Shown here: piece after piece, positions 1 through 2,640 of the stretch
Layout: the number at the start of each line of letters is the position of its first letter
How positions within the stretch are numbered: position 1 is the first letter of the stretch
Source of the DNA: a virus
Reading direction: 5' to 3' (one strand)
Length of the DNA: 20,405 nucleotides
IMG/VR virus record: IMGVR_UViG_3300030101_000163
Span: 1-20,405 of that record
Notes under the pieces: model-generated
Told to the model about the DNA's origin: nothing
Databases searched by the model: none
The model's input: the letters and a program-made list of their open reading frames with translations, nothing else
Position numbers and translations under genes: made by a program

Positions 1-81
1 GGAGCAAGTAAGCTTCATGCTTCTCAGGCAGACAAGATAGAAAGAACACTTCAAAAGAAAGCCCCCAAGAAAAAGAAGTAA
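1..81 (+). CDS. C-terminal end of an unidentified protein (5' end outside window)
   Basis: The first frame is open from the first base to a TAA at 79-81, giving 26 visible residues beginning GASKLHASQADKIERTL and ending in a lysine-rich tail (KKAPKKKK). The stop overlaps the ATG of the next gene by one base (TAATG), the same coupling seen throughout the window, which supports it as real coding sequence. Too little is visible to assign a family. The basic tail would suit nucleic-acid or membrane-surface contact, but that is only inference. Confidence 0.6.
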   Translation, partial: GASKLHASQADKIERTLQKKAPKKKK

Positions 82-302
82 TGGATGATGGTCTTGCGAA
101 AGCTATGGGTATGGATGATCAGGGTCAAAAAGCCTTGCAAGAAATAAACGCACATGAGCGTGAGTGTGCGTTACGGTATGAAAGAATAGAGGAAAGATTA
201 GCAGATGGATCTAGGCGATTTGATCGTTTAGAAAGAATGTTATGGGGCGTTATTATTTTAATTATAGGGAGTCTTTTGGTTCCCCAGTTTTTAGGAGCTT
301 AA
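81..302 (+). CDS. Small membrane protein, XhlA-like, lysis cassette
   Basis: This 73-residue protein has a charged, probably helical N-terminal part (residues about 15-52, with HERECALRYERIEERL) followed by one hydrophobic segment (about 53-70, LWGVIILIIGSLLVPQFL). An amphipathic helix joined to a single C-terminal membrane anchor is the layout of the XhlA/hemolysin-type phage proteins that assist holins, and the HECALRYERIEERL-type motif is common in phage lysis regions. It starts on the stop of the upstream gene and ends two bases before the next ATG. A role in lysis is inferred from layout and from the holin and lysozyme further downstream. It could also be another small membrane accessory protein. 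Confidence 0.7.
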   Translation: MDDGLAKAMGMDDQGQKALQEINAHERECALRYERIEERLADGSRRFDRLERMLWGVIILIIGSLLVPQFLGA

Positions 303-303
303 T

Positions 304-609
304 ATGAGTGATGCAAACACTATAAAGGTTCCGACATGGGCGTTGCCAATAGCTGCCGCCGCATTGTCTGGAGCTATTGCGTGGGGATCTATGCAAGCAA
401 GAGCAGAAGCAACAGATGCAGAAGTCCAAAGGATTGAGCAAGCTGTAAAAAAGACAGCGGAACAGGCAGTAGCCAACGGGCAACTGTCAGCAGTCAATCA
501 GACGCAGATCAAGGCGGTGGTGGACAGCCTGAGTCAGCAACAGGAAACATTGAAAGCGACAGACGAAAAACTGGCTCAACTGATCCAGATAATGCTTCAG
601 AAGCAGTAA
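304..609 (+). CDS. Single-TM coiled-coil protein, possible lysis accessory
   Basis: This 101-residue protein has an N-terminal membrane segment (about residues 12-29, WALPIAAAALSGAIAWGS) followed by a Gln/Ala-rich coiled coil running to the C-terminus. The N-terminal anchor plus periplasmic coiled-coil layout is that of inner-membrane spanins and some holin accessory proteins, but no diagnostic motif is visible. A good Shine-Dalgarno (AGGAG, 7-8 bases before the ATG) supports the start. The gene contains A AAA AAG at 447-453, in the register used for -1 frameshifting, and the -1 frame stays open from 438 to 890. A second, longer product (about 195 residues) sharing the first 50 residues is therefore possible. 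Confidence 0.75.
   Translation: MSDANTIKVPTWALPIAAAALSGAIAWGSMQARAEATDAEVQRIEQAVKKTAEQAVANGQLSAVNQTQIKAVVDSLSQQQETLKATDEKLAQLIQIMLQKQ
430..488 (+). promoter_or_regulatory. Candidate programmed -1 ribosomal frameshift signal
   Basis: The heptamer A AAA AAG lies at 447-453, with codons GTA AAA AAG in the 304-609 reading frame. It is the same slippery heptamer as in E. coli dnaX. An SD-like AGGA lies 13 bases upstream (430-433), similar to the stimulatory SD of dnaX. A weak 6-bp hairpin, GGCAGT (465-470) with ACTGTC (483-488), lies 11 bases downstream. After slippage the ribosome would continue at 453 into a frame open to the TGA at 888-890. The hairpin is not strong, so the claim rests mainly on the heptamer and the startless downstream frame. 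Confidence 0.4.
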
Positions 610-710
610 GATTAGAATACGATCCCGAAGATCCCAATCTGTTTTGTGATCTGAGGGAGTGGAACAAGCTTCAGCTTGTAAACCCGCCGTCCAAAAGACA
701 TAAGGTTGCA

Positions 711-890
711 ATGGATTGGCTGCGGTTTAACCATCAGCAGTGCGGGTATGGGGCGTATATCTATATCAGGAACAGTATGCCTAGAATCCTTGGCACTGCT
801 CATCAAACAGATATAGATGTTCTCACATGGGACTTAGTTCAACCTAAAGCAGAAAGAACTCAAGCCATTACAAAGAAGCGTAGATTATGA
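711..890 (+). CDS. Hypothetical phage protein; N-terminus probably lies further upstream
   Basis: The first canonical start in this frame is ATG 711, with AAGG five bases upstream, giving 59 residues (MDWLRFNHQQCGYGAYIYIR onward) to a TGA at 888-890 that overlaps the next ATG. The frame is open back to 438 without any ATG, GTG or TTG. The stretch 612-710 would translate to coding-like sequence including EYDPEDPNLFCDLREW. Starting at 711 would also leave about 100 unexplained bases in an otherwise gapless gene set. The true product may therefore be a -1 frameshift extension of the 304-609 protein, or may use a non-standard start such as CTG 639. No family was recognised. Confidence 0.6.
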   Translation: MDWLRFNHQQCGYGAYIYIRNSMPRILGTAHQTDIDVLTWDLVQPKAERTQAITKKRRL

Positions 891-1147
891 CTCTTATGAT
901 TTTTGTTCTAGTGCTTCTAACTCCCGGTGGAGTGCCAACCGGCGTAGAGCTTTATTTTCAGGAACTCACTTCCTGTTTAGAATATCGTGATGCGCTCGTT
1001 CATCAGTCTGTACACCAACACAACTGGATGCGTAGTAAAACGACTAAGTTTGATGGCTTTTGTGAGGTGAGACTGATACCTCAAAGCGAAGCTGGCAAAG
1101 GTAAATATATATTTAGAGATCCTGTTAGGAAGAAAGAAGATGAGTGA
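887..1147 (+). CDS. Small exported or membrane-anchored phage protein
   Basis: The 86-residue product begins with a very hydrophobic stretch (residues 2-12, TLMIFVLVLLT), which reads as a signal peptide or an anchor. A soluble part follows with two cysteines (Cys30 in ELTSCLEYRD and Cys59 in FDGFCEV) that could form a disulfide in the periplasm, and the C-terminus is charged (RKKEDE). It overlaps the upstream stop as ATGA and runs 8 bases into the next gene. Position in the lysis region suggests an envelope role, but no function is assigned. Confidence 0.65.
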   Translation: MTLMIFVLVLLTPGGVPTGVELYFQELTSCLEYRDALVHQSVHQHNWMRSKTTKFDGFCEVRLIPQSEAGKGKYIFRDPVRKKEDE

Positions 1148-1720: not shown

Positions 1721-2104
1721 ATGAGCATAGTTTCACAGCTTGTTGGCCCTGTAACCGGCTTGTTGGATAAGTTTATTGAGGATAAAGATCAAAAGGCGGC
1801 TCTTGCTCACGAGATAGCCACTATGTCCGAAAAACACGCTCACGAAGCGTTAAAAGGACAGCTTGAAATAAATAAGGTTGAGGCAGCGCACCACAGTATA
1901 TTTGTTAGCGGATGGAGGCCAGCAATCGGTTGGGTGTGTATGCTTGGTCTGTTTTATAACGTGATCGTGGCAAACATTTTGGGTATATGGGTTGATGTGC
2001 CAGAAGTGGATACTACCTTGCTTGTTCCCGTAATGATGGGAATGTTGGGAATCGGTGCAATGAGATCCTACGAAAAGGTCAAAGGTGTTAGTAGAGAAAA
2101 GTGA
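1721..2104 (+). CDS. Holin, 3TM superfamily (GTA holin-like)
   Basis: This 127-residue protein has an amphipathic charged N-terminal half (KDQKAALAHEIATMSEKHAH, about 23-42). A GWRPAIGWVCMLGLFYNVI membrane segment follows (64-88), then a second hydrophobic segment (99-113, LLVPVMMGMLGIGAM) ending in RSYEKVKG. The WRP...GW start of the TM region and the RS(Y/F)EK ending are the signature of the 3TM holin family found in phages and gene transfer agents. It would form lesions in the inner membrane that let the lysozyme reach the cell wall. The lysozyme gene follows directly, which supports this. The initiation signal is weak (GGTG). Confidence 0.85.
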   Translation: MSIVSQLVGPVTGLLDKFIEDKDQKAALAHEIATMSEKHAHEALKGQLEINKVEAAHHSIFVSGWRPAIGWVCMLGLFYNVIVANILGIWVDVPEVDTTLLVPVMMGMLGIGAMRSYEKVKGVSREK

Positions 2105-2196
2105 GCATGTGGAGCGGCTACAGAAGATTAACTAGATTATTCTGTATTCCACAAATAAATATATTCACAGCTACTCCAGAAGAAAAGGAAACACGA

Positions 2197-2640
2197 ATGA
2201 AAACGAGCGAAGAAGGCATTGCGCTAATAAAAAAGTTTGAAGGCTGTGAGCTGTCTTCTTATATATGTTCTGGTGGCGTTCAAACAATAGGTTATGGTCA
2301 TACCAAAGATGTAAAAGAAGGGGATACCTGTACTGCCGAACAAGCAGAAGATTATTTAAAAGATGATTTAGAAAGTTTTGAGGGTGCAGTTTCTCGTTTG
2401 GTTGAGGTTGATCTTACACAAAACCAATTTGATGCTTTGGTTGCTTGGACTTTTAATCTCGGTTGGGGTTCTTTGTCTTCTAGCACTCTACTTAAAGTTT
2501 TAAACGATGGTAATTATCAGGGTGTTCCAGAACAAATAAAACGCTGGAATATGGCTGGTGGTAAAGTTTTGGATGGTCTTATTAGAAGGAGAGAGGCAGA
2601 AGCTCTTCTTTTTGAAGGCAAACCTTGGGAGGATGTGTAA
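2197..2640 (+). CDS. Endolysin, GH24 T4-type lysozyme
   Basis: The 147-residue product matches the GH24 lysozyme pattern. The catalytic Glu15 is in KKFEG, residue 24 is Cys where T4 lysozyme has Asp (E-x8-C), and Thr30 begins TIGYGHT (C-x5-T). Later family features are NQFDALVAWTFNLGWG and RRREAEALLFEG. It would cleave the glycan strands of peptidoglycan at lysis. ATG 2197 was chosen because it has AAGGA a few bases upstream and gives a normal GH24 N-terminus (MKTSEEGIALIKKFEG). A GTG at 2101 overlapping the holin stop would add 32 residues (including RRLTRLFCIPQINIF) that do not look like a family N-terminus or an obvious signal. Cys for Asp occurs in active phage members. Confidence 0.93.
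   Translation: MKTSEEGIALIKKFEGCELSSYICSGGVQTIGYGHTKDVKEGDTCTAEQAEDYLKDDLESFEGAVSRLVEVDLTQNQFDALVAWTFNLGWGSLSSSTLLKVLNDGNYQGVPEQIKRWNMAGGKVLDGLIRRREAEALLFEGKPWEDV

Follow-up and report, generated by a model that had tools for sequence, protein, structure and literature searches.

A programmed −1 frameshift very probably joins a small membrane protein to a conserved two-cysteine domain in the lysis region of the window, by which we mean the whole analysed stretch, an IMG/VR viral contig of 20,405 bases. According to the mechanism proposed from this sequence and those of its relatives, most ribosomes would read the gene at 304–609 to its own stop and produce a membrane-anchored protein of 101 residues, and some would slip by −1 at A_AAA_AAG (447–453) and read on to position 890, producing a protein of 195 residues. 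In the long form, the membrane anchor of the short protein would be followed by a flexible polar linker and then by the conserved two-cysteine domain. Because the domain in the window has neither a start nor an export signal of its own, slippage would supply both and, in addition, fix the ratio between the long and the short form. Comparison with related loci supports three elements of this scheme, namely the slippery site, a −1 frame that is open and dual-coding, and the lack of a start for the domain; the slippage itself and its frequency we infer, and the pair of products presumably has a role in lysis.

Slippery site and reading frames

The sequence-only reading had claimed an in-register heptamer within the gene at 304–609, an AGGA 13 bases upstream of it, a −1 frame open from 438 to 890 without ATG, GTG or TTG before 711, and a fusion of about 195 residues sharing its first 50 with the short product. 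These coordinates hold (Table 1). The AGGA ends 13 nt before the heptamer, TGA 435–437 is the last −1-frame stop before the open stretch, and the latter overshoots the 0-frame stop by exactly the 281 nt given before. Its earliest ATG, GTG or TTG is the ATG at 711, and the predicted fusion product has a computed length of 195 residues, of which 50 precede the shift. Hydropathy places the membrane segment near the start of the 0-frame protein, at about residues 9–27.

Table 1. Features in and around the proposed frameshift gene (positions in the window)
Position	Strand	Feature	Basis or remark
81–302	+	73-aa protein, membrane segment C-terminal	ORF, hydropathy, weak profile match
304–609	+	0-frame gene, 101 aa; single membrane segment, C-terminal part helical/coiled-coil-like	ORF, hydropathy, homologues
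430–433	+	AGGA, Shine-Dalgarno-like, possible stimulator; end 13 nt 5′ of slippery site	sequence; clade-wise pairing profiles
447–453	+	slippery heptamer A_AAA_AAG	in register, GTA AAA AAG
453–890	+	predicted −1-frame extension, stop 888–890	polar linker 453–614, then conserved domain
615–890	+	conserved 91-aa domain, invariant C11 and C43	alignments; whole domain reachable by shift only
887–1147	+	86-aa protein, N-terminus hydrophobic, two cysteines	ORF, hydropathy
1721–2104	+	holin, GTA_holin_3TM PF11351	E 3e-17; PHROG 3427 lysis
2101–2640	+	endolysin, phage lysozyme PF00959	E 2.9e-48

Of 20,000 simulations in which the 53 overlap codons were redrawn from the phage's own codon usage, 0.4% kept the −1 frame open, as did 0.16% of 5,000 shuffles of the synonymous codons within the gene. 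Among the window's genes, just 4 of 6,510 codon positions have A_AAA_AAG, C_CCA_AAG or G_GGA_AAR in register. A second in-register A_AAA_AAG is located in the endolysin gene (2229–2235), where a −1-frame TGA follows within at most two codons; it looks like a chance occurrence.

Scans of IMG/VR and GTDB genomes yielded 144 non-identical loci of the membrane protein, the family consisting mostly of uncultured viruses. The downstream domain is encoded in 133 of these loci, which are the window, further IMG/VR contigs and a single MAG contig with the label Sphingobacteriales (L177). When 50,697 phage records were searched by tblastn with the membrane protein, no relative was retrieved. The −1 frame carries the domain in each of the 133 loci and is free of stops from the slippery site onward, and ATG, GTG and TTG are absent between the site and the domain, a constellation that argues for the frameshift claimed from the window. 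Two loci (L180 and L268) do contain −1-frame starts, solely well 5′ of the slippery site. The mean number of −1-frame stops is 3.4 upstream of the site and 0 downstream of it, where the +1 frame averages 5.2. The membrane-protein relatives without the domain (L065–L068 and L091–L093) have a closed −1 frame; stops were counted in five of these loci and number 5–7 beyond the corresponding position. The three family heptamers are all absent from this group. A T_TTA_AAC is present in register elsewhere in the gene of L065–L068, where the −1 frame is closed, and is probably due to chance.

Conservation of the heptamer in related phages had been suggested beforehand as a check, and slippery motifs are indeed found in register across nine sequence clusters, every clade having either kept the motif or exchanged it for another one. 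An in-register heptamer that is efficient or ranks at the top in bacteria is present in 110 of the 133 loci (G_GGA_AAA in 45, G_GGA_AAG in 40 and A_AAA_AAG in 25), and the other 23 carry a tetramer alone, namely A_AAG in 22 cases and the weaker A_AAA in one (L059). The A_AAG sites are positioned at, or adjoin, the position aligned with A_AAA_AAG. In the heptamer loci the site was located by the motif itself and in the tetramer loci A_AAR was sought in the matching interval; for these 23 loci the evidence therefore consists in the conserved position, not in the presence of the motif. The codons at the site are conserved beyond the needs of the protein: clade 4 has ACG and GGA in all of its 66 unique CDS, clade 2 has ACG-GGA-AAG in 12 of 12, and the window's clade has GTA in 39 of 39. 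In Escherichia coli, C_CCA_AAG, G_GGA_AAG and A_AAA_AAG are the top three heptamers by efficiency when combined with stimulators; among the tetramers A_AAG ranks first, though tetramers hardly shift unless a stimulator is supplied (PMC4066793), a point that counts against the proposal at the 23 tetramer loci. The use of A_AAA_AAG, A_AAG or G_GGA_AAR in different clades offers a natural series for tests of slippery-site evolution.

A low synonymous change in the overlap, likewise suggested as a check, was found in the two larger clades, clade 2 giving no significant reduction (p 0.31); synonymous variation falls from 0.46 to 0.32 in clade 1 (p 0.0008) and from 0.49 to 0.40 in clade 4 (p 0.009), all of these values being raw with respect to amino-acid composition. 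Clade 4 features strong Shine-Dalgarno-like pairing 6–10 nt 5′ of the site, and other clades show it at other distances. The weak downstream hairpin noted previously is not conserved across clades and was not retained as a stimulator; neither z-scores nor alignment folding revealed a conserved downstream structure across clades, and downstream folding is weak. One candidate downstream stem was found in clade 2, whose sequence hardly varies there.

Alternative routes to the downstream domain

The domain might also be translated alone, through re-initiation or coupling close to the 0-frame stop, from a non-standard start (ATT, ATC, ATA or CTG) within the overlap, a route we consider improbable. 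Rare ATN starts occur in bacteria, and at least one of these codons is present somewhere in the −1 stretch of 90 of 130 loci; however, the other 40 contain none, a position common to a whole clade is found in small clades only and none is family-wide. Moreover, such a start would explain neither the invariant slippery codons nor a −1 frame that is open right up to the site. Even less credible is a slippage of RNA polymerase on the A run, generating mRNAs of altered length in which the two frames are joined. The window offers six consecutive A at 447–452 for such an event, but this is a short run for slippage during transcription, and most relatives have A runs of just 3–5 at the site.

A single contig would also have been compatible with a dead or broken downstream gene, or with a sequencing error that splits one frame, including the base error masking a standard start that the sequence-only reading had considered. 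This explanation is now practically without weight, as it is refuted by the comparative data: 133 non-identical loci, drawn from many samples, show the same frame relation, and the relatives retain a conserved domain and an intact stop.

Relation to known frameshift and lysis systems

The mechanism of −1 frameshifting as such is already known, and what appears to be new is its placement in a lysis-region membrane protein. Programmed frameshifts of DNA phages are known mainly from tail chaperone, capsid and tail genes (PMC5009743). At the level of titles and abstracts, no description of a −1 frameshift in a lysis gene of a tailed phage was found in the literature searched, which is weak evidence of absence. 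In analogy to lambda G/GT (G_GGA_AAG, a heptamer also used by two clades here), a single start and a −1 slip in the first gene would give rise to a short product and a longer fusion. The likeness to tail-assembly chaperones drawn earlier thus applies to the way in which the product is made and not to the identity of the gene, since the latter encodes a lysis-region membrane protein without chaperone or tape-measure context. An assignment as a tail-assembly chaperone pair was rejected, the gene being located before the holin and endolysin genes and its product having an N-terminal membrane segment.

The frameshifts of dnaX and the IS3 family proceed on identical slippery motifs (A_AAA_AAG, A_AAG). 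In dnaX, a Shine-Dalgarno-like element precedes the frameshift site, and such an upstream element is found here too. The genes concerned are different, however, and no conserved downstream stem or pseudoknot was found in the present family. The holin and antiholin S105/S107 of lambda originate from two start codons and differ at the N-terminus. In common with the present proposal, a single gene supplies a small lysis membrane protein in two versions; here, however, the C-terminus would differ, via a frameshift, and the protein is not known to have holin activity. By comparison with the two S products, the short-to-long ratio might time or regulate phage lysis at the level of translation, with forms that oppose or tune each other and with a slippery site instead of two starts setting the ratio; we regard this as rather unlikely.

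Phage capsid and tail proteins gain Ig-like C-terminal domains by frameshifting, which similarly adds a domain to a fraction of the protein, the domain also being found elsewhere without a frameshift (PMC5009743). Unlike these extensions, the one proposed here concerns a membrane protein, and its domain is unrelated to Ig-like folds by the searches made. Two-component spanins (i-spanin and o-spanin) combine an N-terminal membrane segment and a periplasmic coiled coil with a lipoprotein gene for the o-spanin close by; hydropathy indicates an N-terminal membrane segment in the 304–609 protein, and the N-termini of the small ORFs nearby, inspected by eye, show no obvious lipobox. Unimolecular spanins have an N-terminal lipoylation signal and no periplasmic cysteine (PMC6139136); this class was rejected for a protein with an N-terminal segment devoid of a lipobox cysteine and a domain with two invariant cysteines.

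If the proposal is correct, a membrane protein of the lysis region carries a conserved programmed frameshift, which attaches to its membrane anchor a domain that elsewhere has its own signal-like N-terminus. Standard gene calling would overlook the linker together with the domain's first third, because the usable start serves 711–890 only.

The two-cysteine domain and its neighbourhood

In a distant lineage (MW202825.1 and L335–L338), the domain is encoded by a free-standing gene with its own GTG start, which overlaps the preceding stop, and with an N-terminus (e.g. VKWWLSIFLLCVVLARSA) that appears signal-peptide-like by eye and from its hydropathy. The free and the frameshift-dependent forms are about 30–35% identical and share invariant C, R, A, L, N, C, YI, N and LGTA; the free gene also precedes a holin-like gene. 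It differs in following an unrelated membrane protein and in having no need for a frameshift. In MW202825.1 (L098:2935–3207), the annotated start at L098:2974 omits the in-frame GTG at 2935 together with the signal-peptide-like stretch.

Pfam, PHROGs, NCBIfam and a PDB sequence search provided no usable match to the domain, nor did Foldseek comparisons of its AlphaFold models with PDB and BFVD; the two models have mean pLDDT values of 52 and 64. The lone PDB sequence match, 8pjx (E 0.0036, 24 residues), contains no stretch passing alone and was judged to be due to chance. The domain family appears to be new. On account of the two invariant cysteines and the signal-like N-terminus of the free relatives, its likeliest reading is that of an exported, disulfide-stabilised domain encoded beside holin and endolysin. 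The frameshift probably ties this exported disulfide-type domain to a membrane anchor; the topology is presumably N-in/C-out, and the cysteines presumably form a disulfide in the periplasm. The domain DNA of L059 and L179 is 97% identical and their membrane proteins are 38% identical, which suggests that the domain is movable and might be swapped between phages as a module.

The surroundings are assigned as a lysis region because a holin and a phage lysozyme are encoded downstream (Table 1). The protein at 81–302 weakly resembles the gene-transfer-agent (GTA) family RCAP_rcc01685, with an E of 4.4e-06 that lies under the model's cut-off. In the endolysin ORF the lysozyme domain is preceded by a long N-terminal lead, and the true start of the endolysin may be the ATG at 2197.
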